Shown here piece by piece: positions 3,157-35,243 of a stretch of 64,000 nucleotides of DNA. Positions within the stretch are counted from its first letter, which is position 1; each line of letters begins with the position of its first letter. Origin of the DNA: a virus; IMG/VR virus record IMGVR_UViG_3300028173_000003, positions 1-64,000 of that record; one strand, written 5' to 3'. The position numbers and the translations under genes are program-made. The notes below the pieces were generated by a model. That model made no database searches. It was not told the DNA's origin and was given only the letters and a program-made list of their open reading frames with translations.

Positions 3157-3195
3157 TTACTCACACTTGATTTGCTACACAACGAGGAACAAACA

Positions 3196-4140
3196 ATGAC
3201 AAACAAAACAAGTGGTATCTATCAAATTAAAAACATAAAGAATGGGAAGATGTATATAGGACAATCCACTTGCATTAAAGAAAGGTGGGAAGTTCATCGA
3301 AAACTTTTGAATAGAAATCGACATACAAATCTTCATTTGCAAATGGAATATGATCGTTATGGTGAAAAGTCGTATGAGTATTCTGTTTGCGAGTTGGTTG
3401 AAGAGGAAAGACTTGACGAGCGGGAGATTTATTGGATATCTCGTCTCGATACTTTTCTGGATTGTGATAAGGGCTATAACAAATCCTGCGGAGGAGAAGG
3501 GGTAGGAAAAGGAGAAAATCATCCTTGTGCAAGGTTTGACAAAATGGCGATTGTCGAAATTAGGAAAGAATACAAAGACAACTCAGAATTGTTAATTAGA
3601 GACATTTGCCGAAAACGCAAAGTAGACGAGATGACAATTGGGAGAATCATTAGAAACAAAACATATTTTGATAAAGATTATATTCCACCAACAAAAGAAG
3701 AAATAAACAAAAAGAAAAGTAACAATGCCGCTGTCCGAATGATTGGGGATAAAAATCCTAATTTTGGAAAGTATGGAGAGGCAAACTCTAATTTTGGAAA
3801 GTATGGGGTAGATTCTCCAAATGCTGTTTTTACTAATGCTCAAATTGTTGAAATTAGAAAAAAATACAACGATAATGTGTCTCTAATTAGACTTGCCAGC
3901 ATGTATGATGTAAGTGATTCGACAATTGGAGCGATTGTAAGAAATGAAAGATATGTGGATGATAATTATCATCCACCAGAGAAGAATGTTATAAGGGTTA
4001 AAGTGACATGGGAACTTGTTGAAAAGATTCGAGAGAGATTTAATAAAGATAGTCCAACTCAAGTTTCGTTAGCAAGAGAATTCAAAGTTTCAGTTTCTTG
4101 CATTAACAACATTGTTCGAAACAAAACTTGGGTTATTTGA
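3196..4140 (+). CDS. GIY-YIG homing endonuclease with three HTH repeats
   Basis: 314 aa from ATG 3196 behind CGAGGAAC; an upstream in-frame TTG at 3172 is less likely. GIYQIKN with KMYIGQS (residues 6-22) is the GIY-YIG core, followed by the conserved Arg region (IKERWEVHRK) and a Glu in LDEREIYWI. The C-terminal half contains three modules of about 55 residues of the type IVEIRKKY - LA.MYDVS - TIGAIVRNE.Y, which read as helix-turn-helix DNA-binding repeats. It sits between the small-gene cluster and primase and is free-standing, a mobile gene rather than a phage-function gene. Confidence 0.85.
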   Translation: MTNKTSGIYQIKNIKNGKMYIGQSTCIKERWEVHRKLLNRNRHTNLHLQMEYDRYGEKSYEYSVCELVEEERLDEREIYWISRLDTFLDCDKGYNKSCGGEGVGKGENHPCARFDKMAIVEIRKEYKDNSELLIRDICRKRKVDEMTIGRIIRNKTYFDKDYIPPTKEEINKKKSNNAAVRMIGDKNPNFGKYGEANSNFGKYGVDSPNAVFTNAQIVEIRKKYNDNVSLIRLASMYDVSDSTIGAIVRNERYVDDNYHPPEKNVIRVKVTWELVEKIRERFNKDSPTQVSLAREFKVSVSCINNIVRNKTWVI

Positions 4141-5375: not shown

Positions 5376-5596
5376 AAAGAAGATGCAAAGCAAACGACAT
5401 TATAGTTACAAAGTGGCCAAACGAAGAGAGTGAAAAGAGATTTTTCAGAGTCGTTACTACAGATAAACCTTGGAAATCAACATTCCCAACAATAGAATTG
5501 GAAGTGTTGAGTGGTCCAATGAGGGGCGAGTCAGTTTGGGTATATGAAAAGACATTTGAAGGAGAATTTATAAATGAAGAGGAAGATAATGAATAA
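5372..5596 (+). CDS. Small hypothetical protein
   Basis: 74 aa, coupled to the previous gene by ATGA. The short beta-strand-like segments (DIIVTKWPN, FFRVVTTDKPW, TIELEVLSGP) and acidic tail suggest a small beta-barrel, as for its neighbour. No known function. Confidence 0.55.
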   Translation: MKRRCKANDIIVTKWPNEESEKRFFRVVTTDKPWKSTFPTIELEVLSGPMRGESVWVYEKTFEGEFINEEEDNE

Positions 5597-6887
5597 AAAC
5601 AAAGGGTTACGGATCTTGCATTTATCAGATTTGCACGTACAAAATCTAAAGTACCAAGAAGAATACAAGACAATCTTTGAGGAACTTTACAAGAAAGTAA
5701 AGGTACTAGATCCTGACGGGATCGTTATTACTGGAGACATCTTCCACTCAAAGACCCCATCTTCAGAAGCTTACGACATGGTGTCTAAGTTATTGAAGTC
5801 ATTGGCAGATATTAAGAAGACATATGTTCTATGTGGTAATCACGATATGAATGTGCGTAATAAAGATCGTCTTGATAGCATTACTCCTGTTGTAGATACG
5901 TTACAACATCCTAATATTGAATATCTTAAGTATTCAAGTATTCACCATATTAAGGATAATTTCTATTTTAATGTTCTTTCTCTTTTTGATGAGGACAATT
6001 GGGTTCCTTCCCCAAAGGATGATGGTAATGTCTACATTTCTCTCTATCACGGAGTTGTATCTGGAAGTCAGACAGAGTTTGGGTATAAATTTGAAAAGGG
6101 ACAGATTGATGACAATATTTTGTATTCAAGTACTTTTGGACTGCTGGGAGATATTCACCTACGTCAAGCATTAGGTGGCAGTGATCGTTTTTGGATGGCA
6201 GGGTCTCTAATTGCGACAAACTTCGGAGAGACAGAAGATAAAGGATTTCTTGTATGGGATATTGAAGATAAGGATGAATACAATATTGAATTTGTCAAAC
6301 TTAATAATCCTCATCCATTTATTAATGTTAAGGCAGAAGAACTTGATGATAAGATTGATTCTTTAAGAAGTGCAAGAGTAAGATTGATCACTGAACAAGT
6401 CTTGACCAAGGAAGAAGAAAGAAATATCAAGTTTAAAATTAATCAACAGTATCCTTATAGTATTAAGTTCCATACGAAGGTGAAAAAGTTAGCAGAAGAT
6501 GTAATGTCAACATCTGATGGTTTAACTGGGGATGTCCGTATTCAATCTGTGCAGGAACGATTGTTTGAAGAATTTGTAGGAGATGCACTTGATGAACGAG
6601 AGTTAAAGGAACTATTAGAATTAAACAAACAATATTCAGCCTTACTAGAACAAGAAGAAACAGCAAGAGGAACGACTTGGAAGGTGAAGACTTTAGAGTG
6701 GGATAATCTATTCAACTATGGAGAAGGGAACAAGATCGACTTCGAGAAATTGCAAGGCAATATTGTAGGAATATTGGGGAACAATTATAGTGGAAAGTGT
6801 GTGGATAAAAAAACCGAAATCGAAATAGAATTTGATGAAGAAGAAATTATAAATAAATTAGGATTCCTTCCAGATGAATTGAGTTAA
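5574..6887 (+). CDS. Fused gp47 nuclease + gp46 N-terminus + N-intein
   Basis: 437 aa. Residues 13-340 are a calcineurin-like phosphoesterase of the T4 gp47 / SbcD / Mre11 type: HLSDLHV (D19, H21), TGDIFH (D55), CGNHD (88-91), YHGVVSG and GDIHLRQ. Where gp47 should stop, the chain continues into the N-terminus of the SbcC/gp46 ATPase (WKVKTLEWDNLFNYGEG), reaching the P-loop GILGNNYSGK (399-408). The next residue, C409, starts a 29-residue intein N-half and then a stop. With the gene at 8096 it should give one gp47-gp46 recombination nuclease after trans-splicing. ATG 5589 (behind GAGGA) is an alternative start; both lie in the overlap with the preceding gene. Confidence 0.85.
   Translation: MKRKIMNKNKGLRILHLSDLHVQNLKYQEEYKTIFEELYKKVKVLDPDGIVITGDIFHSKTPSSEAYDMVSKLLKSLADIKKTYVLCGNHDMNVRNKDRLDSITPVVDTLQHPNIEYLKYSSIHHIKDNFYFNVLSLFDEDNWVPSPKDDGNVYISLYHGVVSGSQTEFGYKFEKGQIDDNILYSSTFGLLGDIHLRQALGGSDRFWMAGSLIATNFGETEDKGFLVWDIEDKDEYNIEFVKLNNPHPFINVKAEELDDKIDSLRSARVRLITEQVLTKEEERNIKFKINQQYPYSIKFHTKVKKLAEDVMSTSDGLTGDVRIQSVQERLFEEFVGDALDERELKELLELNKQYSALLEQEETARGTTWKVKTLEWDNLFNYGEGNKIDFEKLQGNIVGILGNNYSGKCVDKKTEIEIEFDEEEIINKLGFLPDELS
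6798..6884 (+). other. Split-intein N-half (29 aa)
   Basis: Begins with Cys directly after the P-loop GK and ends at the stop codon. It is very acidic (TEIEIEFDEEEI) and contains only intein block A. The complementary half (8096-8467) supplies blocks B and F, ends in His-Asn, and is followed by Ser. The short N-half places this among atypically split inteins. Confidence 0.85.
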
Positions 6888-6942
6888 TTCTTAAATAAAG
6901 TTTTCCCAGAGTAGTTACTACTTAATAATGGGGGAAAGTAAT

Positions 6943-8103
6943 ATGAAAAAAATATGTAAAACGTGTAAAGAGGAAAAGAGTAAGGAAGATTTTCCTCTTC
7001 ATGGCTATGTTAGAAAAAGTGATGGAGCTTCTTCTCGTCGTTCTGTTTGTAAAGAATGTTACAAAATTGTTGTAGCAAAAAATCATGTTAAAAAATACAA
7101 ACAAAAGAACAAACATGACAGAGATTTGGTTAGGTGCGAAATTTGTGGATATGAGGCAACATTATTAACGTCTCATATTCACTTTAAACACAAAATCAGT
7201 ATGGAGGAGTATAAGAAAAAATATAATACACCCATTTCATCTCCCTTTACACAAGAAATGAAAGATAATAGGAAAGAAACATCACCAACTTCAAAATTGT
7301 ATTGGATTAAAAAAGGATATACAGAAGAAGAGGCTGTCTCGATAGTTTCAAAAAGACAATCCACCTTTTCTTTGGAGAAGTGTGTTGAAAGAGATGGGGA
7401 AAAGAATGGAAGAAAAAGATGGGAAGAGAGACAAGAGTTATGGCAAAAATCTCTATTGAACAATACAGAAGAGTTTATTGATGATATGAATGAAAGAAAG
7501 AACCCTTGGAAGGAGGAGTTTTGGGAAAGGGACAGTTGGAAGGAGGATTACGCATCGAGAGTAAAAAAGGGTAACGGAGTTGTTCCTAAATTGCTTCTTG
7601 AATGTTTTGATGTTAAAGATTTGATTAAAATGCTGCCAACCATAGTTACTTACGAAAAATTAAGACAATATTTAAAGATAAAAGGGCTTCGAATAGCATT
7701 TAAAATTACAGAACAAAATGAAGAACACATATACAGAGAGATGATGAAAGAGTATTCTTTCGAACTTCCAAAAAATAGTAAGTCATTTGGACAAAAGTGT
7801 TATTATAATGGGATTATGTTTCGCTCTCTCGGGGAGGCAGAAATTGCGAAGTTTTTGGACAAAGAAGGAGTTTATTTTCTGTACGAGAGACGATATCCAA
7901 TAAAAGAAACAAGGTATTTGTATGATTTTTATTTGCCAAAATACGACTTGTATGTTGAGTATTATGGCCTTTCTTTGTACGGACCTTATAAGGAAAGGAT
8001 GGAAAAGAAAAAGAAAGAATTATTAGACAACAATATAAAATGTGTGTTTTCGGATGATGTGGAAAAATTAAAAGAATATTTAAAAGAGGAAATAAATGAA
8101 TAA
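6943..8103 (+). CDS. Homing endonuclease between split-intein halves
   Basis: 386 aa from ATG 6943 behind GGGGGAAAG; ATG 6928 is in frame but lacks a ribosome site. The N-terminus has two zinc-binding segments: CKTCKEEK...CKECY, and CEICGYE with a following H-x3-H and SMEEYKKKY. The C-terminal 110 residues resemble a PD-(D/E)XK / Vsr-like nuclease: FRSLGEAEIAKFL, LYDFYLPKYDLYVEYYG, and a Lys-rich helix. Position and type fit the fractured-gene arrangement in which a free-standing endonuclease gene lies between two split-intein genes. All three genes are in different frames. Its stop overlaps the next start by 8 nt. Confidence 0.75.
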   Translation: MKKICKTCKEEKSKEDFPLHGYVRKSDGASSRRSVCKECYKIVVAKNHVKKYKQKNKHDRDLVRCEICGYEATLLTSHIHFKHKISMEEYKKKYNTPISSPFTQEMKDNRKETSPTSKLYWIKKGYTEEEAVSIVSKRQSTFSLEKCVERDGEKNGRKRWEERQELWQKSLLNNTEEFIDDMNERKNPWKEEFWERDSWKEDYASRVKKGNGVVPKLLLECFDVKDLIKMLPTIVTYEKLRQYLKIKGLRIAFKITEQNEEHIYREMMKEYSFELPKNSKSFGQKCYYNGIMFRSLGEAEIAKFLDKEGVYFLYERRYPIKETRYLYDFYLPKYDLYVEYYGLSLYGPYKERMEKKKKELLDNNIKCVFSDDVEKLKEYLKEEINE

Positions 8104-8467
8104 AAAAATTACAATGGAAAAGTATTATGATTTTTTTAATAAATATGGGGATTGCAATGTAAAAGTGAGCACTCCTTATGGATTTAGAAAAATTGAAGCA
8201 ATTGCGATCACTGCCTTTGATAGTCAAGTTATGGAAGTAAGAACGAAAGAAGGGTTAAAATTAAAAACATCCCCAGACCACTTAATCAAATTAGCAAACG
8301 GAACCTTCACTAAGACAAAGACTTTGAATCCAGGAGATGACATTCAAACTGTAAATGGTTTAGATAAAGTTTCTGTTATTGTCACTCTTCCTTATAGAGA
8401 TGATTTGTACGATCTGCAAGTTGAAGAAGTTAAGCAATACTATTCTAATGGGATTGTTTCTCATAAC
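8096..8467 (+). other. Split-intein C-half (124 aa)
   Basis: Runs from the ATG to the HN before S125. It contains block B and the C-terminal splicing block with its His-Asn; no endonuclease domain is inside. The break between blocks A and B, rather than at the usual endonuclease position, is the atypical feature. Confidence 0.85.
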
Positions 8468-10372
8468 TCTTCTGCAATCTTATCTTTAATGTATACAATG
8501 TATAACACCACCATTAAGAAGGATAAGACATCAAGAATTATCAATGACAATAAAGACAACGCCTATGGCAAGGTTGTTATCGAGTCGGGTGGTGAAGATT
8601 ATGTAATTGAACGTTCTTGTGAAAGGGCAAAAGGAGAGGATTCAAAAACAACACTAGAGTTCTATAAGTTATTGGATGATGGTAGTCACTTTAGTTTAAA
8701 CGGAACATCAAGAGTAGAGACAGACAAAAATATCAAAAGAGTATTTGGTACGATTGATGACTTTTTATTGACAGCTTTGAGTGGACAGAAGAAGGCAGAA
8801 CAATTCCTTGAACAAGGTATGACAGAAAGGAAGAAGACGTTGGCAAAGTTTCTTGATCTTGAATCGTTTGATGTCAAACACAAGCTGGCAAAGAAGGATA
8901 GTGCAGAACTAAAAGGACAACTGAAAAGAAATGTTGATAGAGACTTTGAAGAAGAAAAGGAAACTTTAGAAGATGATATTGAAGACATCTTGGAGGAAAG
9001 GGCAGAACAAGAAGAGAAACTTTCAGAAGTAATTTCAAATCAAGATAGTGTTGTGCAAAAAATTGCAAATATTGCTGCAGAATTAAACCTTAAACCTATC
9101 AAGGATATTAATATTGAAGATGTAGTTTCTCAAATTGATAGATTATCTTACAAAATTAAAGATAATGTTGAAGAAATTGTCAAATTAGAAGAGGAACTTG
9201 GGAAGATGATCTCCAAGAACACCCAGGCACAAAAAATGCTTGATGGATTTAGTGATACGAATTATGAGGAACAATTAGAATATCACAATAAAAGACAGAG
9301 AGCGATTACAGATTTGAAGAAGACAATCGCGTTTGAAGAAAGAGTTCTCAAAGAACAAGAGAAGAAGACGAATATTCTTGATGAAGTACCTTGTGCGAGT
9401 AAATATGGGACTTGCCCATTCTTACAAGATGGATTTGAGGCCAAAAGTTGTCTCCCTAATAAGGAGGCAGAGATTGAGGCACTAATCAAAGAGAAAGAGA
9501 TCGAAGAGGATGCCAATGCCAAGTTTGATGTAGGACATGTTGAGAGAAAAATTGAACAACACAATAAACTTATCCAATATTGCCAAACAGCAAAAGATAA
9601 GATTACATCAATGACGTTTGAGAAGGAAAGAAAAGGAATCGATCTTAAGAGAAACAAGAACAATCTTCAAGAGCAGAAAGATAAAGAAGCAGAATACAAT
9701 AAGAGCAAGAAGGCGCAAGAAGATAAGGAAGAGAATAAGAAAAAGTTAGTAATATCAAAGAAATTGTTGAAAGAAATTAAAATATCAGTAACTTCAATAC
9801 AGGACACTATTAGTTCGTATAATAAGAAGATTGGGTATCTCGAACAATCAATTGAGCAAATTTGCAAAGAAGAAAAAGAAAGAAGTGTTTTAGAGAAAGA
9901 GTACAAGATTTATGAAATGTTCATTAAGGCTACTCATAGTAGCGGGATTGCGAGCAGCATTGTTGGAGAGAAGTTGCCATTCATTAATAGAATTATTGAA
10001 AGCATCTTGAAAGATCTTGTAGATTTTAAAGTTTATTTTGATAAGAAGTACAACATCTTTATCGAACACGAAGGTCAAAAGCCAAGAATGATTGAGATGG
10101 GTTCTGGAGCAGAGACATCGTTGGCATCATTTGCAATTCGTGTTGCATTAAGTGCAGCGAGTAATCTGCCTTTGGGCAATCTTTTGATCTTAGATGAGCC
10201 CGCGACCGATCTTGACGGAGAACATTTGGAGAGTTATATTGAAAATCTAAATGTATTAAAGAACTATTATGATGTCATTATTCTTATTTCTCATCTCGAC
10301 GTTGTAAAAGATGCTGTTGATGTAACTTTAGACATTGAACAAAAAGAGGGTTTTGTAACTATTTATTCTTGA
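8096..10372 (+). CDS. C-intein + gp46/SbcC-type recombination ATPase
   Basis: 758 aa with its own SD (AGAGGA) and ATG, so it is translated separately from gp47. Residues 1-124 are the intein C-half: TSPDHLIKL is the block B TxxH element and YDLQVEEVKQYY...GIVSHN is block F/G. Extein starts at S125 (SSAILSLMYTMYN), completing GKS of Walker A. The rest is an SMC-like ATPase: long coiled coils, an apex with C433 and C440, signature motif EMGSGAETSLASFAIRVALS and Walker B LLILDEPATDLDG. Spliced to the upstream product it would give about 1040 residues. It acts in DNA end resection and recombination-dependent replication. Confidence 0.85.
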   Translation: MNKKITMEKYYDFFNKYGDCNVKVSTPYGFRKIEAIAITAFDSQVMEVRTKEGLKLKTSPDHLIKLANGTFTKTKTLNPGDDIQTVNGLDKVSVIVTLPYRDDLYDLQVEEVKQYYSNGIVSHNSSAILSLMYTMYNTTIKKDKTSRIINDNKDNAYGKVVIESGGEDYVIERSCERAKGEDSKTTLEFYKLLDDGSHFSLNGTSRVETDKNIKRVFGTIDDFLLTALSGQKKAEQFLEQGMTERKKTLAKFLDLESFDVKHKLAKKDSAELKGQLKRNVDRDFEEEKETLEDDIEDILEERAEQEEKLSEVISNQDSVVQKIANIAAELNLKPIKDINIEDVVSQIDRLSYKIKDNVEEIVKLEEELGKMISKNTQAQKMLDGFSDTNYEEQLEYHNKRQRAITDLKKTIAFEERVLKEQEKKTNILDEVPCASKYGTCPFLQDGFEAKSCLPNKEAEIEALIKEKEIEEDANAKFDVGHVERKIEQHNKLIQYCQTAKDKITSMTFEKERKGIDLKRNKNNLQEQKDKEAEYNKSKKAQEDKEENKKKLVISKKLLKEIKISVTSIQDTISSYNKKIGYLEQSIEQICKEEKERSVLEKEYKIYEMFIKATHSSGIASSIVGEKLPFINRIIESILKDLVDFKVYFDKKYNIFIEHEGQKPRMIEMGSGAETSLASFAIRVALSAASNLPLGNLLILDEPATDLDGEHLESYIENLNVLKNYYDVIILISHLDVVKDAVDVTLDIEQKEGFVTIYS

Positions 10373-11643: not shown

Positions 11644-12615
11644 ATGGAAGTTTGTAAGATTTGTGACAAAGAGATAAATACGAATAGAGGGTTAGCGATT
11701 CATATAAAAAGAATTCATAACCTTTCAAGCGAGGAGTATTATAATAAATATGTACAAACAGATCCAAATGAAGGGAAGTGTTTAAGTTGTGGCAAAAAGA
11801 CAACTTTCGAAGGAAGAGAAGTCATTAAATATCGAGAGTTTTGTTCAACAAAATGTTCCCACAGTTTCGAGAGAACAAAAGAAAGAAAAAAGAAAGTATA
11901 TTTAGAAAGATATGGTGTAGAAAACATTTCTCAATTGGAATCAACCAAGAAGCAAAAAGAAGAAGCTTATCTAAGAAAGTATGGAGTTAAAACTCCCTTG
12001 TCAGATAAGGACAAAATGAAAAGGGCAATTCAAGATAAATATGGAGAAGAATATACGAACATTTCACAAGTTCCCAAGATAAGAGAAAAAATTAAAAATG
12101 TAGTATTGGAAAGGCACGGTGTAGAAAACGTATCCCAATTAGAGTCGGTCAAGAAAAGGAAAGAAGAAACGACATTAGAACATTATGGAGTACGTCATCA
12201 TATGCATATTCCAGAAATTCAACAAAAGGTTTCTACAAATTCTTCTACTGCTTATAAATTGTTAGAATATAAAACAAAGTTTGGAGATTTAATTCATTAT
12301 CAGTCAACATTTGAATTGAGCTATATCAAACAGTGCGAAGAAGATGGTATCAAAATTGTTGATGGTGATGATGTTTCTTACACATTTGGAAACGAAGAGA
12401 GAAGATATTATGTAGATTTTAAGATTTTTGATGAGAATGATAAGCCACAATTAATCGAAATTAAAGGTACTCATAAATGGTATTGGAAAGATTTGAAAAG
12501 TGGATTGTTGAGTGCTAAAAACAAAGCTGCACAAGAGTTTTCAAGTACAAATGGCTATTCCCCATTTAAGATGATCTTGAACGGAAATGTGGCAGATTTA
12601 GAGGAGATATTATAA
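11644..12615 (+). CDS. Free-standing homing endonuclease (PD-(D/E)XK-like)
   Basis: 323 aa. The N-terminal zinc finger CKICDKEI...LAIHIKRIHNLSSEEYYNKY matches those of the endonucleases at 6943 and 33714. A second CxxC...C zinc cluster follows. The central region repeats [RK]YGVENVSQLE[ST] and variants four times. The C-terminus has STFELSYIKQC, YYVDFKIFD and QLIEIKG, the spacing of a PD-(D/E)XK nuclease core. It lies 4 nt after the previous gene with only a weak ribosome site. It probably targets DNA near this locus. Confidence 0.65.
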   Translation: MEVCKICDKEINTNRGLAIHIKRIHNLSSEEYYNKYVQTDPNEGKCLSCGKKTTFEGREVIKYREFCSTKCSHSFERTKERKKKVYLERYGVENISQLESTKKQKEEAYLRKYGVKTPLSDKDKMKRAIQDKYGEEYTNISQVPKIREKIKNVVLERHGVENVSQLESVKKRKEETTLEHYGVRHHMHIPEIQQKVSTNSSTAYKLLEYKTKFGDLIHYQSTFELSYIKQCEEDGIKIVDGDDVSYTFGNEERRYYVDFKIFDENDKPQLIEIKGTHKWYWKDLKSGLLSAKNKAAQEFSSTNGYSPFKMILNGNVADLEEIL

Positions 12616-16029: not shown

Positions 16030-17625
16030 ATGGCAAAGAAAAAAAACAGAGAGATGACAAAGAAGGAGATTCTTGAAGAACTCCAAAAGTGTGCGAATGA
16101 TCCTGTATACTTTATTAATCATTACTGTCAAACTACCCACCCAACAAGAGGATTGATTCCTCTTCATCTTTATGAATTTCAAGAAGAAACAATTCAAGCA
16201 TATCAAACGTACAGATTTAATATTATCTTAAAGGCAAGGCAGTTAGGGATTTCGACAATCACTGCAGCTTATGCTTTGTGGTTAATGTTATTCCATCGCG
16301 AAAAGAACATCTTGACAATTGCAACAAAACAGGGAACAGCAGCTAACGTTGTTAAGAAGACGAAGAGCATGTTTCATAATTTGCCAAAGTGGATGAAACA
16401 ATTGGTATCTATTGTAACAGATAACAGGGCAGCGTTGGAATTTAATAACGGGTCACAATTCAAGGCAGAAAGTACATCATCAAGTGCAGGACGTTCAGAA
16501 GCTTTGTCTTTACTGATCATTGATGAGGCTGCTCACGTAGAGGGTCTTGAAGAGTTGTGGACAGGGTTGAGACCTACTCTTACTCTTGGTGGGGCATGTA
16601 TTGCTCTATCAACCCCGAATGGCGCAGCAGGTTGGTTTTATGAGACATATGAAAAGGCAGTAAATGATGAGGATGAATCTGATTTTAATCCGATTGAGTT
16701 AATGTGGTGGGTTCATCCAGATCACGACGATGAATGGTTAAAGAAAGAATCGGCAGACATGAGCAAGAGACAACTTGCTCAAGAGCACTTGTGTAGTTTC
16801 AATGCATCTGGAGATACGGTGTTTGAAACAGATCACATCGAGAGAATAAGGAACGCAATTAAAGAACCAATAACAAGGGCAGGATTTGATAGGAACGTTT
16901 GGATTTGGAGAGATCCGCAAGTTAGTGTTCAATATCTGATGTCGGTAGACGTTGCAAGAGGTGATGGGCAAGATCATTCAACATTTCTTATATTTGATTT
17001 ATCGACGATGGAATGTGTTGCAGAGTATCGAGGAAAGCTCCCAACCGATACGTATGGAGAATTGATTTATACTTGGGGAACAATGTATAATCTTTGTACT
17101 GTAGTTGTAGAGAATAACACCTATGGTGACGGAGTATTGAGAAAACTTATTGAAATGGAATATTCTAATATTTATTATTCAATGAAGGGTAGTGGAGAAT
17201 ATGTTTCTCCATTAAGGGCGGCATCTGTTGAAAATGCTATTCCAGGATTTTCTACTTCATGGAAGTCTCGTCCACTTGTTATTAGCAAGATGGAAGAGTA
17301 TGTAAGAAACAAGATGTTGACATTATATTCGAAAAGGATTGTGTACGAAATGACAACTTTTGTTTGGAAGGATGGTAAACCTCAAGCACAAAGAAAGAGA
17401 AATGATGACCTCATAATGGCATGTGCAATTGCGTGTTGGGTCAAAGATGTTGTATTTGCCACATCATTACGAGATGTAGAGTATCAAAAAGCATTCCTTG
17501 GAGCAATCTCTAGACAAGGAATGGAACTGGATTCAACAATTCCAGGGATGAAAGGGCGTGGAACTATGACTAATTACGATCATCAAGAGCACGTTAGAGA
17601 ATATCGATGGCTATATAGTGGATAA
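16030..17625 (+). CDS. Terminase large subunit (T4 gp17-like)
   Basis: 531 aa. The ATPase domain has the variant P-loop KARQLGIST (68-76), Walker B LLIIDEAAH (161-169) and coupling motif LSTPNG (193-198). The RNase H-like nuclease domain has SVDVARGDG (D307), VVENNTYGDG (E361) and KRNDDLIMA (D459/D460). It pumps DNA into proheads and cuts the concatemer. The adjacent portal, and the promoter box 30 nt upstream, fit a packaging operon. No intein is seen in this copy although TerL genes often carry one. Confidence 0.92.
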   Translation: MAKKKNREMTKKEILEELQKCANDPVYFINHYCQTTHPTRGLIPLHLYEFQEETIQAYQTYRFNIILKARQLGISTITAAYALWLMLFHREKNILTIATKQGTAANVVKKTKSMFHNLPKWMKQLVSIVTDNRAALEFNNGSQFKAESTSSSAGRSEALSLLIIDEAAHVEGLEELWTGLRPTLTLGGACIALSTPNGAAGWFYETYEKAVNDEDESDFNPIELMWWVHPDHDDEWLKKESADMSKRQLAQEHLCSFNASGDTVFETDHIERIRNAIKEPITRAGFDRNVWIWRDPQVSVQYLMSVDVARGDGQDHSTFLIFDLSTMECVAEYRGKLPTDTYGELIYTWGTMYNLCTVVVENNTYGDGVLRKLIEMEYSNIYYSMKGSGEYVSPLRAASVENAIPGFSTSWKSRPLVISKMEEYVRNKMLTLYSKRIVYEMTTFVWKDGKPQAQRKRNDDLIMACAIACWVKDVVFATSLRDVEYQKAFLGAISRQGMELDSTIPGMKGRGTMTNYDHQEHVREYRWLYSG

Positions 17626-17682: not shown

Positions 17683-20600
17683 ATGAAAGGTCTTAAAAAT
17701 CCAAACCCAAGAAATCCAGATACAAAATTATATAAGAACTTAACAAGATTACTATCAGGACCATTGGTAGTATATCGAAGTCAACTACCAGTACAAGGGA
17801 AGAGAAGATTCCTTGACAAGTACGGTTCAAAGTTCCGCTCTGCCAGTGGGCAGCAATTTAAAAGATCACAACACAATCCATTCGATCACCTAAATGCAAA
17901 CATGATTGCTAACCAAGTCAGGTCAGAAAGATACATTGACTTTGACCAGATGGAATACGAGCCAATTATTAACTGTATTACGAAAGATTCAGTCATAAAC
18001 ACCCCTTCTGGGGACTTCACAATAGAACGGTTGTTGGAGATGTACCCAAATGGGGAAAACTTCTCTGTGTACGCTTATGACGAATCTAAAGGATGCTTGA
18101 CGGTCGGAAATGCTCATAGCGTTCGTTATACAAAGACAGATCAAGTCTACAAGGTTACATTGGATTCTGGGGAAAGTATTCGGTGTACTAGTGATCACAA
18201 GTTTTTAACAAGAGACGGTAATTGGGTAGAGGCAAAAGATTTGAAAGAGGAACAACCTCTTATGCCATTTTATCGCAAATATGTAAAACGAGACAAGGGA
18301 TATCCTTCTGTTTATACAATTAATGATGGTTGGCAGAGAGAATATCGTTTTGTTGCTGAGAAGACAATTCTTGGAAGAAAGCTTGGAGAATACCCTGTCG
18401 AAGTTGTTCATCACGTCGATCACAACAAGAGCAATAGCAATCCTGATAATCTGCAAGTCGTTTCTGCCAAAGAACATGCAGCAATTCATGGAAGAGACTG
18501 GTACGAGTTCTTCGAGGAAGAAAGAAGAAATAAAATTAGAGATGCCGTTTCAAAAGCTAATAAGGGAAAGGCAGCTTGGAACAAAAATCTAATTGGATGG
18601 TTAGAACACACTCCAGAAGCAAGAAGAAAGATCTCAAAAAAAATGAAGGCAATTTGGGAAGTTGCAACTAAAGAAGAAAAGGAGAAGATGCTTTTCGGGA
18701 TGAGAAAGTGGATGAAGTCTGATATTGGGAAAGAAGTGATGTCTCAAAGAAGGACAAAAATGAACTTGGAAATGTGGAAGGATGAAGAGTTTGTTGAAAG
18801 AGCTTCAGAGAGAAGTTCAAAACACATGAAAGATTTGTGGGACAATGAAGACTGGGCTATCTGGAAGAAGGAACACCATTCAGAAGTGATGAAAAAAAAG
18901 TATCAAGAGGATCCAGAGTATTATAAAAAGAGCGTTAATTATGGAGATAAGAATGGGAGATTTAATAAAGCAATTAATACCGAATTCATTTTAACTTCTG
19001 GAGCGCAGTATGAGGATTTTGAAGATTTCTTAAAAGACGTGGATCTTGGAGAATTTAAAACTAAGGCACGGAAGCGTCAATTTGTTTTAAGAAGGTTGAT
19101 GACGAAAGGATTTGATAGTTGGAAAGATTATAAAGAAAATTATGTTTATGAAAATCATAAAGTAGTTTCTGTTGAAAAGATGGGCATCGAAGATGTGTAT
19201 GATCTTACAACCGATGTATATCACAACTTCGCGTGTAGCGGAGTCATTATTCATAACAGCGCCTTGGACATGTATGCAGACGAGATTACAACATCATCTG
19301 CATTGAGAAAGATGTTGACAATTAACTCAAGTAATGGAGAGATCAAATCAATTCTTCAAGCATTATATTATGATGTATTAAATGTAGACTTTAACCTATA
19401 TCAATGGGCAAGAGCATTTTGTAAGTATGGTGATTTTTTCTTATATTTGGATATCGATGAAGACATTGGTATTCAATCTGTAATTGGTTTACCATCATCT
19501 GAGATTGAAAGGCTGGAGGGAGAAGACAAAACAAACCCAAGTTATATCCAATACCAATGGAATAGTGCAGGGATGACGTTTGAAAATTGGCAGATTGCTC
19601 ACTTCCGCAATGTTGGAAATGAAAAGTTTGTGCCCTACGGGTCCAGTGTTTTGGAAGGAGCAAGAAGAATCTGGAGACAAGTAATCCTTCTTGAGGATGC
19701 AATGATGGCATATCGTATTGTACGATCACCAGAAAGAAAGGCATTTTATATTGATGTTGGGAACATTCCCCCACAAGAAACTGAGCAGTTTGTTCAAAAG
19801 ACGATTACAGAGATGAAGAGAAACCAATTGATTGACTCTAGCACTGGGAGAGTAGACTTAAGATACAATCCATTTTCGATTGAAGAAGATTACTTCATCC
19901 CTGTTAGAGGTGGAACTTCACAAACTCGTATTGAATCAATTCCTGGTGGACAATATACTGGAGATATTGATGATGTAAAATATCTTAAAGACAAGTTGTT
20001 TGCAGCACTTAAAGTTCCTCAATCGTACTTGTTCCGAGGAGAAGGAGCAGAAGAAGACAAGACAACATTAGCACAAAAAGATATTAGATTTAGTAGAACA
20101 ATTCAAAGACTGCAAAGAGCAATCATTTCAGAGTTGGAAAAAATTGGTATCATTCACTTATACACTTTGGGGTACAGAGGATCAGACCTGATCTCTTTTA
20201 CTTTATCTTTGAATAATCCATCAAAGATTGCAGAACTACAAGAGCTTGAATATTGGAGAACAAAGTTCGACGTAGCTTCTGCAGCAGTAGAAGGATATTT
20301 CAGCAAGCGATGGATTTCCGAGCATCTATTTGGAATGTCTGATGAAGAGTTCTTACGAAACCAAAGAGAGATGTTCTATGACCGCAAATTTGAGGCAGCT
20401 TTGGCAGTTGCTGCAGAAGATGAGGGCGAAGGTGATGGTGGTCTCGAAGACTTTGGTGGAGGTGGAGGAGCATTTGGTGGTGGATTTGAAGATGAAGAAG
20501 GTATGGGAGGAGAGGCAGAGTTAGAAGATCTCGAAGGTGGGGAAGATATGGACGAGCTACCACTTGATGATGGTGGTGGAGATGGTGGAGATGAAGATGT

Positions 20601-20940
20601 CTTGTTAGCAGCCCCTGCAAAGAGAGATGATGACGAGGGATATGTAACTCCTGGCAGTAAGGGTAAAAAGTACAAACCAGTTGCTTCTGATAAGCGGAGT
20701 ATGGGAGCACGCAAACGTCACATGAAGGGGCAGTATGCGTCAGAGTTGGGAAGTAATACCCCAAGAAATACTCACAAAGGATATGGAGATCTCAAGTCTC
20801 TATCGAAGGGAATCTTTGAGCAAGAAGAAAGAAAACTAATGCAGACACAGAGGGAAATCGAATTCCTTGTTGAAAGTCTAAAGACAAAAGAATCTTCAGT
20901 TATTACAGAAAATGTAGCAAAAGCTGTAGGAGAAAAGTAA
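17683..20940 (+). CDS. Portal protein (T4 gp20-like) with HNH intein
   Basis: 1085 aa, of which residues 98-525 are an intein; the exteins join as EYEPIIN + SALDMYADEITT, a typical T4-type portal segment, giving a 657-aa mature protein. The mature sequence shows the portal core (YDVLNVDFNLYQWARAFCKY, YGSSVLEGARRIWRQ, GAEEDKTTLAQKDIRFSRT). The C-terminal tail is unusually acidic and Gly-rich (about residues 900-990), followed by basic residues. It forms the dodecameric vertex through which DNA enters. SD AAGGAG precedes the start. Confidence 0.92.
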   Translation: MKGLKNPNPRNPDTKLYKNLTRLLSGPLVVYRSQLPVQGKRRFLDKYGSKFRSASGQQFKRSQHNPFDHLNANMIANQVRSERYIDFDQMEYEPIINCITKDSVINTPSGDFTIERLLEMYPNGENFSVYAYDESKGCLTVGNAHSVRYTKTDQVYKVTLDSGESIRCTSDHKFLTRDGNWVEAKDLKEEQPLMPFYRKYVKRDKGYPSVYTINDGWQREYRFVAEKTILGRKLGEYPVEVVHHVDHNKSNSNPDNLQVVSAKEHAAIHGRDWYEFFEEERRNKIRDAVSKANKGKAAWNKNLIGWLEHTPEARRKISKKMKAIWEVATKEEKEKMLFGMRKWMKSDIGKEVMSQRRTKMNLEMWKDEEFVERASERSSKHMKDLWDNEDWAIWKKEHHSEVMKKKYQEDPEYYKKSVNYGDKNGRFNKAINTEFILTSGAQYEDFEDFLKDVDLGEFKTKARKRQFVLRRLMTKGFDSWKDYKENYVYENHKVVSVEKMGIEDVYDLTTDVYHNFACSGVIIHNSALDMYADEITTSSALRKMLTINSSNGEIKSILQALYYDVLNVDFNLYQWARAFCKYGDFFLYLDIDEDIGIQSVIGLPSSEIERLEGEDKTNPSYIQYQWNSAGMTFENWQIAHFRNVGNEKFVPYGSSVLEGARRIWRQVILLEDAMMAYRIVRSPERKAFYIDVGNIPPQETEQFVQKTITEMKRNQLIDSSTGRVDLRYNPFSIEEDYFIPVRGGTSQTRIESIPGGQYTGDIDDVKYLKDKLFAALKVPQSYLFRGEGAEEDKTTLAQKDIRFSRTIQRLQRAIISELEKIGIIHLYTLGYRGSDLISFTLSLNNPSKIAELQELEYWRTKFDVASAAVEGYFSKRWISEHLFGMSDEEFLRNQREMFYDRKFEAALAVAAEDEGEGDGGLEDFGGGGGAFGGGFEDEEGMGGEAELEDLEGGEDMDELPLDDGGGDGGDEDVLLAAPAKRDDDEGYVTPGSKGKKYKPVASDKRSMGARKRHMKGQYASELGSNTPRNTHKGYGDLKSLSKGIFEQEERKLMQTQREIEFLVESLKTKESSVITENVAKAVGEK
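17974..19257 (+). other. Large intein in portal, with HNH homing endonuclease
   Basis: 428 residues. Block A CITKDSVINTPSGDF begins with Cys1. Block B is RCTSDHKFLT. The HNH nuclease is VVHHVDHNKSNSNPDNLQVV followed by a H-x3-H stretch (residues about 241-269 of the precursor). NUMOD-like helices lie around ARRKISKKMKAIW. Block F/G is VYDLTTDVYHNFACSGVIIHN, followed by Ser+1. All splicing residues appear intact, so an active full-length intein that still carries its endonuclease is likely. Confidence 0.9.
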
Positions 20941-23750: not shown

Positions 23751-24986
23751 ATGAAGTTCAATTGTGGTATCTATCAAATTTTAAATACAAAAACAGGCAA
23801 ATCATACGTAGGAAGTTCATCTAATATTCGAAAAAGATGGGCAGGGCACAAGAGACAGTTGAAAAGGGGAGAACACCACTCGACTCATTTACAAAGATCT
23901 TGGAACAAATATGGCGAAGAAGAATTTAAATTCTTACTTATTGAAGAAGTAAAGGAATCTCAAAACTTAATTAAAAAAGAACAAAGCTATCTTGATATTT
24001 TTAAAGTTTATGATAGGGAATTCGGATTCAACATCAGTCCAACGGCGGGAAGTACACTGGGGATTCCTTGTTCTGAAGAGACGAAAATAAAGTTGAGAGA
24101 ATTTAATAAAGGGAAGAAACTATCAGAAGAAACGAAACGCAAAATGAGCGAAATAAGGAGGGGAGTGAAATTAGGACCAAGAGGGCCAATGTCAGAAGAA
24201 AACAAACAAAAGATAAAAGATTCTTATTTAAATAGGACAGCATGGAATAAGGGATTAAGGTGCCCACAAATGGCAAAATGTGGAGAAGACAATTCTCAAG
24301 CAAAACTAACGTGGGGAGAAGTTGGAGAAATAAGGGAAAAATACCTAACAGGTGATTTCAAGAGAGATTTTCTGGCAGAAGAGTATGATGTGTCTTGTTT
24401 CGCAATTTCTAAAGTTATCAATAATAAGAGATGGATAGACAAAAACTATACTCCTCCAACTCACAACCAAGCTCAAAAATTGACGGAAGAGAAGGTAAAA
24501 GAAATAAGAATAAAATATGCAACAGGAAAACATAAACAAACAGATATTGCAAAAGAGCACGGGATTGATGGAGCAACGGTTTGCGAAATTGTTAATTACA
24601 AATACTGGATAATCGAAGGAGAAGAAAGGATTGAAAAGCCAGAGTATGGTTGTGGTCACAAACTAACGTGGGAGAAGGTACATGAGATAAGAAATTTATA
24701 TTCTATTGAAAGAAAACATTCGATTAAAGAGTTGGCAGAATTATATGAAGTTTCAAATTCGTTAATTGCTCTCATTATTAGAAACGAACGTTGGTATGAT
24801 GAAAACTATACTCCACCAAAACACAAAAACAAAGGGAACAAGTTGACTTGGGAACTGGTAGTCGAAATGCGCGAGAAGTATAAAAAGAAAAATCACCCAA
24901 CACAAATCAAGTTAGCAGAAGAATACGGAATAGATAAAAGAACGGTATGTGACATCGTAAATTATAAAGCTTGGAAGGAAGAATAA
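23751..24986 (+). CDS. GIY-YIG homing endonuclease with four HTH repeats
   Basis: 411 aa behind AAAAGGAG. GIYQILN and KSYVGSS form the GIY-YIG core with IRKRWAGHKRQLKRG after it. Two or three NUMOD3-like segments follow (SEETKIKLREFNKGKK, SEETKRKMSEIRRG, SEENKQKIKDSYLNR). There are then four tandem modules of about 60 residues, each opening with LT.E.V.EIR..Y and ending in an I.NN..W-type segment, read as HTH DNA-binding repeats. Free-standing and mobile. It sits between head genes and has its own promoter box. Confidence 0.87.
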   Translation: MKFNCGIYQILNTKTGKSYVGSSSNIRKRWAGHKRQLKRGEHHSTHLQRSWNKYGEEEFKFLLIEEVKESQNLIKKEQSYLDIFKVYDREFGFNISPTAGSTLGIPCSEETKIKLREFNKGKKLSEETKRKMSEIRRGVKLGPRGPMSEENKQKIKDSYLNRTAWNKGLRCPQMAKCGEDNSQAKLTWGEVGEIREKYLTGDFKRDFLAEEYDVSCFAISKVINNKRWIDKNYTPPTHNQAQKLTEEKVKEIRIKYATGKHKQTDIAKEHGIDGATVCEIVNYKYWIIEGEERIEKPEYGCGHKLTWEKVHEIRNLYSIERKHSIKELAELYEVSNSLIALIIRNERWYDENYTPPKHKNKGNKLTWELVVEMREKYKKKNHPTQIKLAEEYGIDKRTVCDIVNYKAWKEE

Positions 24987-33713: not shown

Positions 33714-35243
33714 ATGGAGACATGTTTAATTTGTGGAAAGGAAAAGAAAAGTAAAAGAGCATTGGCAACTCATCTTCAAATGGTTCACCACTTGAAATCA
33801 AAGGATTATACAATTCAATATATCTTAAAGGGAGAGCAACCAAAATGTTTGCTATGTAACAATGAGCCTCGTTATGTATCTTTTGAATTTAAACAATATT
33901 GCAAAGAACACAAGAACATTGCAGAAACAAAAGGAGGAAAGAGGGGAGGAAGAGGAGCGAAACTTTCTCTTGACGTTTTCGAAGAAAGATTAAAGGAATA
34001 TTGTTCTTTAAGAAATGTAGAAGATTTGAACAATAGGTATGAGGATTATATTAGCCAGAACGAAAAGAACATTAAAGTAAAATGTAACAAGTGCGAAGAG
34101 GAATTGACGACATCTTTAAATTATCTAAGAGATCATAGTTCAATATGCGGGAATTGTAGAGATCGTTCTACGTCTGAAGAGACAAAAGGCAAAATTTCAA
34201 ACACCTTAACGATGAAGAAGGAAGTATTTGAAAAAAGAGTACTGAATAAGTGCGACACGTTTAAAGTTTTAACAAAATATGAAGAATATGGCTCAAGAAA
34301 ATTACAAAAGAAACTGAAAGTAGAATGTGCAAAGTGTGGAGATATTACTAAAAGAACGCTACAACAACTTGACGAAGGGACTTTATGTTGGAAGTGTAAT
34401 CCGTCTTCAAAGCCGGAGAACGAAGTTGCCGAATGGGTAGAATCTCTTGGACTCGATGTTGTAAGAAACAGCAGAAAGATCATTGCTCCAAAAGAGATTG
34501 ATATTTACATTCCATCAAAAAAGGTTGCCATCGAATATAACGGATTGTATTGGCATAGTGAATTAAATAAAGAGAAATCATACCATTCAGATAAATCAAA
34601 GGCTTGCAAGGATAAGGGCATCTTTCTATTCCACGTGTTTTCAGATGATTGGGAACAGAAGCAAGATGTTGTTAAATCAATGATCAAAAACAAGTTAGGA
34701 CTTAACAAGACAAAGGTTGCAGCAAGAAAGTGCAAGATCATCGAGCAAGAGAAAAACAAACTAATGGATAAGTTTTTTAATGATAATCATTTATTAGGGC
34801 ATGTTCAAGCAACTAAAGGATTTTTCTTGGAATATAACGATCAGGTTGTTGCAGGAATTACGCTAAGAAAGCCTGCACACAGAAAATATAAAGGATCAGT
34901 TGAGGTTGCAAGGTTCACAACAAAGATCGATACAACAGTCCAAGGTGGATTTTCAAAACTTCTCAAGGCAGCAATCAAATGGGCAAAGGACAATGGTTAT
35001 GAAAAAGTTATTACATATGCAGACTTGTCTCACGGCAATGGCAATGTATATGAGAAGAACGGATTTACATTCCTAAACGAAACAAAGTTAAGTTATTGGT
35101 ATACCGATGGCATCTCACGCTACAATAGATTCAAATTCAGAGCACAAGATGGCAAAACAGAGAAACAAGTTGCAGAAGATAATGGTGTATTCAAGATCTT
35201 TGGTTGTGGGAATAATTTGTATGAACTGCCACTTTCTCCTTGA
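33714..35243 (+). CDS. Vsr-like (EDxHD) homing endonuclease with GNAT-like domain
   Basis: 509 aa behind AAGGAG. N-terminal finger CLICGKEKKSKRALATHLQM with H-x3-4-H, then three more CxxC pairs (residues 50-230). The nuclease core is SKPENEVAEWVESLGL, EIDIYIPSKKVAIEYNGLYW with HSE after it, and FLFHVFSDDW, which is the E-D-H pattern of Vsr-like EDxHD homing endonucleases. The C-terminal 180 residues (NHLLGHVQATKGFFL, VVAGITLRK, VEVARFTTKID, GGFSKLLKAAIKWA, YADLSHGNG) read as a GNAT/Mom-like acyltransferase fold. Free-standing, inserted between capsid and ligase genes. Confidence 0.78.
   Translation: METCLICGKEKKSKRALATHLQMVHHLKSKDYTIQYILKGEQPKCLLCNNEPRYVSFEFKQYCKEHKNIAETKGGKRGGRGAKLSLDVFEERLKEYCSLRNVEDLNNRYEDYISQNEKNIKVKCNKCEEELTTSLNYLRDHSSICGNCRDRSTSEETKGKISNTLTMKKEVFEKRVLNKCDTFKVLTKYEEYGSRKLQKKLKVECAKCGDITKRTLQQLDEGTLCWKCNPSSKPENEVAEWVESLGLDVVRNSRKIIAPKEIDIYIPSKKVAIEYNGLYWHSELNKEKSYHSDKSKACKDKGIFLFHVFSDDWEQKQDVVKSMIKNKLGLNKTKVAARKCKIIEQEKNKLMDKFFNDNHLLGHVQATKGFFLEYNDQVVAGITLRKPAHRKYKGSVEVARFTTKIDTTVQGGFSKLLKAAIKWAKDNGYEKVITYADLSHGNGNVYEKNGFTFLNETKLSYWYTDGISRYNRFKFRAQDGKTEKQVAEDNGVFKIFGCGNNLYELPLSP

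Follow-up and report, generated by a model that had tools for sequence, protein, structure and literature searches.

The stretch of DNA analysed here (64,000 nucleotides, positions 1 to 64,000 of the IMG/VR virus record IMGVR_UViG_3300028173_000003; hereafter the window) comes from a virus of bacteria in which gp46, the SbcC/Rad50-like ATPase that processes DNA ends for recombination, is encoded as two proteins, each carrying half an intein. The element is best read as a class-1 intein, naturally split and of the VidaL type, with a short N-terminal half (IntN) and a longer C-terminal half (IntC), lying in a 'fractured gene' at the classic P-loop site. We consider it highly probable (roughly 0.87) that a homing cassette has split gp46, that the two halves trans-splice into a recombination ATPase of 1042 residues and that the endonuclease encoded between them serves homing.

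The locus consists of three open frames on the forward strand, a gp47–gp46N gene (5574–6887), an endonuclease gene (6928/6943–8103) and a gp46C gene (8096–10372). The first, of 437 residues and with its TAA stop at 6885, encodes gp47, a phosphoesterase resembling SbcD/Mre11, in fusion with the beginning of gp46; this N-extein (5574–6797) ends in GILGNNYSGK, where the Walker A motif GNNYSGK (6777–6797) is broken directly after its Lys, the point at which homologues read GK/S or GK/T (slashes mark junctions). Codon 409 (6798–6800), adjoining the motif, is the intein Cys1; it opens an IntN of 29 residues, CVDKKTEIEIEFDEEEIINKLGFLPDELS, Cys included in the count, which together with its stop codon occupies 6798–6887 and is conserved in the IntNs of 29–30 residues of related loci. 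After a leader (6888–6942) with a plausible Shine-Dalgarno sequence, GGGGG, at 6930–6934, the endonuclease gene runs to 8103; its frame, the third, opens at 6928, the better start being the ATG at 6943 that GGGGG precedes. The C-gene overlaps the end of this gene by 8 nt and has a plausible Shine-Dalgarno sequence of its own, AGAGGA (8085–8090), lying within the end of the endonuclease frame and 5 nt upstream of the C-gene ATG. Its 758 codons begin with an IntC of 124 residues, MNKKITMEKYYDFF...SNGIVSHN (8096–8467), and continue as SSAILSL into the remainder of gp46, the C-extein (8468–10372), with the coiled coil, the signature motif and Walker B. An earlier note on this DNA had described an N-gene ending 29 residues into an intein after GILGNNYSGK, a C-gene at 8096 that opens with 124 intein residues up to HN and restores GKS through SSAIL, an endonuclease gene in a third frame between them and a separate Shine-Dalgarno sequence for the C-part, and all of this was confirmed in the sequence.

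The identity of the two extein parts is supported by profile searches, in which the N-extein matched PHROG 100 (SbcD-like, 1.1e-29) and Pfam Metallophos (6e-12) and the C-extein PHROG 77 (SbcC-like, 3.8e-33); the latter is also 27% identical to the intact gp46 of Microcystis phage Mel-JY01. The predicted joined product (408 + 634 = 1042 residues, with GNNYSGKS restored) falls in the size class of single-chain homologues (about 1055 residues) and, judging from PHROG 77, the Mel-JY01 alignment and the P-loops of homologues, would unite Walker A, coiled coil, signature and Walker B in one chain. Among the intein-free gp47–gp46 homologues (81 listed, 80 checked, one without a match; at least 76 uninterrupted), the residue following the P-loop Lys was Ser in 74/80 and Thr in 2/80, the remaining 4 being unreadable.

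The intein itself is recognizable in several ways. The IntC matched Pfam Intein_splicing (PF14890, 3.1e-10), scored above the cut-off of the intein C-terminal model TIGR01443 and aligned over its full length with VidaL (PDB 6vgv; 5.9e-8, or 4.6e-13 by profile). The residues of a class-1 intein are present in the window, namely C1, the block-B His in TSPDH, HN and S+1, and the same set recurs in 36/36 gp46 loci bearing this intein. In four of these loci, L191 among them, both halves are joined in one frame. The window IntN is 62% identical to the contiguous L191 intein over 26 residues (E 5e-10) and the IntC 56% identical, the two halves aligning to its residues 1–26 and 28–152. Modelling of L191, with an alignment to which the window halves and other relatives contributed rows, predicted a Hint fold (predicted local distance difference test score, pLDDT, 95.1), with 63 PDB matches at E<=0.001, of which VidaL was the best (E 6e-11, template-modelling (TM) score 0.82), followed by the NrdJ-1, gp41-1 and RecA inteins. 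In this model, the split point falls in a loop that links an extra helix (residues 14–21) to the strand ahead of helix 1. Strand 2 and helix 1 thus flank the split, as they do at the S1 position, yet the extra helix stands before it; the 16-residue IntN of VidaL has no room for this helix, which is conserved in the main clade of gp46 inteins. The split would accordingly correspond to the VidaL-type position (S1), with a helical extension of the IntN.

Relatives were found by scans with an alignment of C-halves, since scans with single proteins (gp46C, the endonuclease) gave only near-identical records. Of the 36 gp46 loci that were worked through, some of them near-copies, 32 are split at one position, while L191, L192, L201 and L212 are contiguous. 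All 36 retain GK before Cys1, Cys1 itself, the block-B His, HN and a Ser/Thr at +1. The IntN measures 23–31 residues over the 32 split loci: in the main clade, it has 29–30 residues, the last of them being EIIKKLGFLPDELK or a close variant, and is paired with an IntC that begins M-(N/K)-K-ITIGEL; in an outlying clade, the IntN has 23–31 residues. A chance resemblance is excluded by the matches to PF14890 and TIGR01443, the gp47 and gp46 profiles and the 76 intein-free relatives. The suggestion of the earlier note that these are split intein halves, expected to trans-splice and akin to fractured genes, is supported. All gp46-intein loci come from viral metagenome contigs. A tblastn search for this intein in isolated phages found none, only terminase and UvsX inteins being matched, and a single scan of cellular genomes revealed no relatives. 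Nor was a report of gp46 as a split-intein host found in the literature searched, which did not cover Dassa 2009, Neugebauer 2017 and Burton 2020; gp46 is therefore put forward provisionally as a new host gene for a split intein.

Both intein halves are under purifying selection in the relatives: most related pairs give a ratio of non-synonymous to synonymous substitutions (dN/dS) of about 0.1–0.25 in either half (for L202–L220, 0.08/0.82 for IntN and 0.12/0.79 for IntC). The endonucleases of the relatives are under purifying selection as well. Moreover, the synonymous divergence of the IntC is lower than that of both flanking exteins in 15/15 pairs, and in 7/7 pairs without a shared locus (sign test, p 0.008); the endonuclease and mostly the IntN show the same low values, apart from two pairs with a high IntN value. 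This is what would be expected if the cassette moved laterally between diverged gp46 genes by homing. Gene conversion or a different codon constraint would be another explanation for the low IntC values.

The gap between the halves is occupied by different enzymes. The window endonuclease (6943–8103) combines a Ros/MucR-type zinc finger (PF05443, 1.6e-5), NUMOD-like repeats and a putative C-terminal PD-(D/E)xK / Vsr-like nuclease domain, and matches a Holliday junction resolvase family (phrog_9019, 6.5e-6). No sequence relatives were found for it in the PDB by profile search; the top fold match of its nuclease domain was the catalytic domain of I-Bth0305I (probability 0.99, TMt 0.62), at E 0.12 and with a predicted TM score (pTM) of the model of 0.38. 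I-Bth0305I is a Vsr-like homing endonuclease. In most relatives, the endonuclease consists of a helix-turn-helix domain (HTH) and an E..GD..H nuclease, as in the IIEYNGDxxH of L202, L204 and L222. In the window, L190 and L195, the zinc finger accompanies a related nuclease core in which D and E are present and the following D and H absent (VEYYGL.. in the window). The Vsr-like character that the earlier note mentions for the endonuclease of known fractured genes appears to hold for the predicted fold of the window enzyme; it does not extend to the D and H of E..GD..H, and a Ros/MucR zinc finger replaces the HTH. In L194, a GIY-YIG enzyme lies in the gap (1.2e-10). Seven split loci of the tree set have a broken endonuclease or none: L189 retains a zinc-finger start and a short tail, and the gap is reduced to 40 nt in L218 and to 27 nt in L199. 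The split position has therefore remained constant while the occupant of the gap changed or vanished. A conserved stretch like CCTTTTTGGTTAAACGGTTATATTTATA was also seen downstream of the IntN stop, before the endonuclease gene of the E..GD..H type (L032, L034, L036, L041, L042, L045, L050 and others); it is partly retained in L030, where the endonuclease is lost.

We propose that a gp47–gp46 fusion gene harbours the cassette IntN–endonuclease–IntC at the junction of its Walker A Lys and Ser codons, and that the two gene parts and the endonuclease would be separate translation products with starts of their own. The two intein halves would associate into one Hint domain and carry out a class-1 reaction, with attack by Cys1, transfer to Ser+1 and cyclization of Asn124 aided by His123, thereby joining 408 and 634 residues into an ATPase with an intact P-loop. 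The endonuclease would cut the intein-free gp46 of co-infecting phages, and repair of the break would copy the cassette in. The anatomy, the homology, the Hint fold of L191, the purifying selection and the lower synonymous divergence are drawn from sequence and structure prediction; what we infer is splicing, its precedence over ATPase activity, and the target site and activity of the endonuclease. That the ATPase is inactive before splicing is a sound inference, because the Walker A Lys and Ser would lie on different chains. Since gp46/47 are possibly part of the break processing behind T4 homing (PMC2988022), the cassette may depend on the product of the very gene that it interrupts.

Some points weigh against this interpretation. 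The Hint fold comes from a model of the contiguous relative L191; the selection and synonymous-divergence results come from relatives, the window lineage being too diverged (IntC identity <=57%); and the window endonuclease is without two residues of the usual signature, which makes its activity uncertain. This last point is shared by an alternative that we regard as unlikely, namely that the intein works but that the endonuclease is inactive or not aimed at gp46, the cassette now being inherited vertically, as the mere remnants between the halves of several relatives might also suggest. However, the window gene has a full-length frame, its own Shine-Dalgarno sequence, conserved core D and E and a Vsr-like predicted fold, and its counterparts in the relatives are, as mentioned, under selection.

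Far less probable is the idea that the two parts work unspliced as separate subunits with vestigial intein halves. The two open frames with their separate translation signals would suit it, but Walker A would then be cut between Lys and Ser, and neither the intact catalytic residues in 36/36 loci nor the constraint on both halves would be accounted for. Phage introns commonly hold endonuclease genes, and an RNA intron whose ends are joined in RNA would give a similar layout; there is, however, no Rfam match in the window, the flanks encode conserved intein halves and the contiguous relatives translate both halves as one protein, so that we give this explanation hardly any weight. The least probable is that an intein gene which is in fact contiguous was broken by a frameshift or assembly error; the earlier note had named a sequencing error as grounds for rejecting the split. 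Contiguous relatives do exist, but a second IMG/VR record (L001) is 100% identical to the window over 13,899 nt and a third (L002) differs by 9 substitutions and zero indels over 6,540 nt. As both carry the same layout without an indel, a frame error is refuted for the window; 31 other loci are, in addition, split at the same position.

The direction of evolution can be approached through the contiguous loci. These do not group as a single clade (approximately unbiased (AU) test, p 9e-8), and the tree, in which many inner branches are weak, needs four changes. Re-fusion of split genes is the interpretation that we favour as probable, because the outgroups are split and because an internal Met-Lys-Lys survives in L191 and L192 at the very point where the IntC of their split relatives begins. 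Alternatively, the contiguous form may be ancestral, endonuclease genes having broken inteins repeatedly at the same loop, a view that concerns direction only and is compatible with the trans-splicing cassette proposed above. The occurrence of contiguous forms at four places of a weakly resolved tree is allowed by either direction, but the split state of the early branches as well as the outgroup, the Met-Lys-Lys inside L191 and L192 and the position of L199, with its 27-nt gap, next to contiguous L212 make repeated splitting the less probable of the two, although quite conceivable. It is tempting to go further and speculate that phage gp46 was split from the outset, that the split state is positively maintained, that it outlasts the loss of the endonuclease and re-fuses only occasionally, and that a two-protein ATPase delays or gates break processing and hence the homing of a cassette that uses the same machinery; on present grounds, we consider this doubtful.

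Fractured genes that combine split inteins with EDxHD/Vsr-like endonucleases were reportedly described by Dassa et al. in 2009. According to papers that cite this work, they share with the window a gene broken at the intein, a free-standing endonuclease between the parts and three open frames; most gp46 relatives have an endonuclease of that E..GD..H type, whereas that of the window deviates from it and has a Ros/MucR zinc finger. Among solved structures, VidaL (PDB 6vgv; its host is of the UvsX type, as in the relative L063/L067) comes nearest in both sequence and fold, which bears out the affinity with VidaL/AceL-type short-IntN inteins anticipated in the earlier note. VidaL and the gp46 intein have in common Cys1, HN, a short IntN, the strand 2/helix 1 split and the P-loop of a recombination ATPase. 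They differ in the length of the IntN (29 residues in gp46, 16 in VidaL), owing to the extra conserved helix DEIIKKLGFLPDELK of the gp46 IntN, and in the host, a Rad50-type ATPase with insertion after GK as opposed to UvsX with insertion after GESG. The same three-gene layout is found in Pseudomonas phage PA5oct (L010, NC_071039, 1757–4763), where the fractured UvsX gene comprises gp276 (the IntN part), gp275 (a Vsr-like endonuclease) and gp274 (IntC and the C-part of UvsX), annotated as hypothetical proteins and a recombinase. The order of N-extein with short IntN, Vsr-like endonuclease gene and IntC with C-extein and the P-loop insertion are as in the window, but the ATPase is another one, the IntN has about 17 residues without the extra helix and the IntC is 28% identical. 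A split PolB is known from MIJ3, a relative of PA5oct (PMC6892783).

The earlier note had called the break point, the short acidic N-half and the location at a catalytic P-loop unusual. Acidity apart, each is known: natural split inteins with IntNs of 15–37 residues have been described with both split positions (PMC13014065, PMC11766414), including the strand 2/helix 1 split (PMC13014065), and insertion between the invariant Lys and Thr (here Ser) of Walker A is the classic site (PMC5050341). AceL-TerL and GOS-TerL are likewise naturally split with a short IntN (25 and 37 residues, respectively), but their host is a terminase and they are split after helix 1 (S2), whereas the gp46 intein is split before it. 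The TerL1-a P-loop inteins of mycobacteriophages occupy the same Lys–Thr site of Walker A and are described as elements inside the TerL protein rather than as split genes (PMC5050341). As to acidity, the net charge of −7 of the window IntN is real (IntC, +1) but is not a family trait, relatives ranging from −7 to +2. Charge complementarity was rejected as a principle of assembly, as many relatives combine an IntN near 0 with an IntC of about −12.

Other features of this phage may be mentioned. Its terminase gene (16030–17622) puts it among T4-like myoviruses without a close isolate, the closest terminases being those of Flavobacterium phage immuto (42%) and Microcystis phage Mel-JY01 (39%). 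A T4-type late promoter considered upstream of the endonuclease gene (TATAAATA at 6848) was discarded, as the motif is not enriched (6 versus 3.9 expected); genome-wide, it occurs 3 times forward and 7 times reverse. Outside the window, at about 66.8–67.3 kb of the same genome (G000:C1; L004:1435–1989), a gp41/DnaB-like helicase carries a contiguous intein of 185 residues at the same Walker A position (STSGGGK/C ... SHN/S). At its C-terminal end, this intein shares 39–41% identity with the gp46 IntC, so that a single phage has inteins at GK/S in two different P-loop ATPases. In the window, a portal protein gene (17683–20940) contains a full-length contiguous intein of about 428 residues with an HNH endonuclease and the C-junction IIHN/SALDMYAD. 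Four more free-standing homing-endonuclease genes (3172–4140, 11644–12615, 23751–24986 and 33714–35243; GIY-YIG/seg-like and Hef/HNH-like) mark this phage as rich in mobile elements. In Salicola phage SCTP-2 (L009, 3243–5213), a UvsX-like gene, 204, has two contiguous inteins in one protein.

The arrangement is hence of a known type, and what appears to be new is, provisionally, the host gene gp46; the evolutionary series is what gives the case its value. The loci, which have host gene, insertion site and split position in common, offer an unusually complete set of stages, from empty sites through split genes with three types of endonuclease and split genes with a remnant or a tiny gap to contiguous, apparently re-fused forms, so that it becomes testable how fractured genes arise, persist and revert. 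The set also adds about 30 naturally split inteins that are new; their N-halves are short enough to be synthesized, natural contiguous controls exist, and they should be useful for protein ligation. For the phage itself, the cassette would place a post-translational assembly step on a recombination enzyme.

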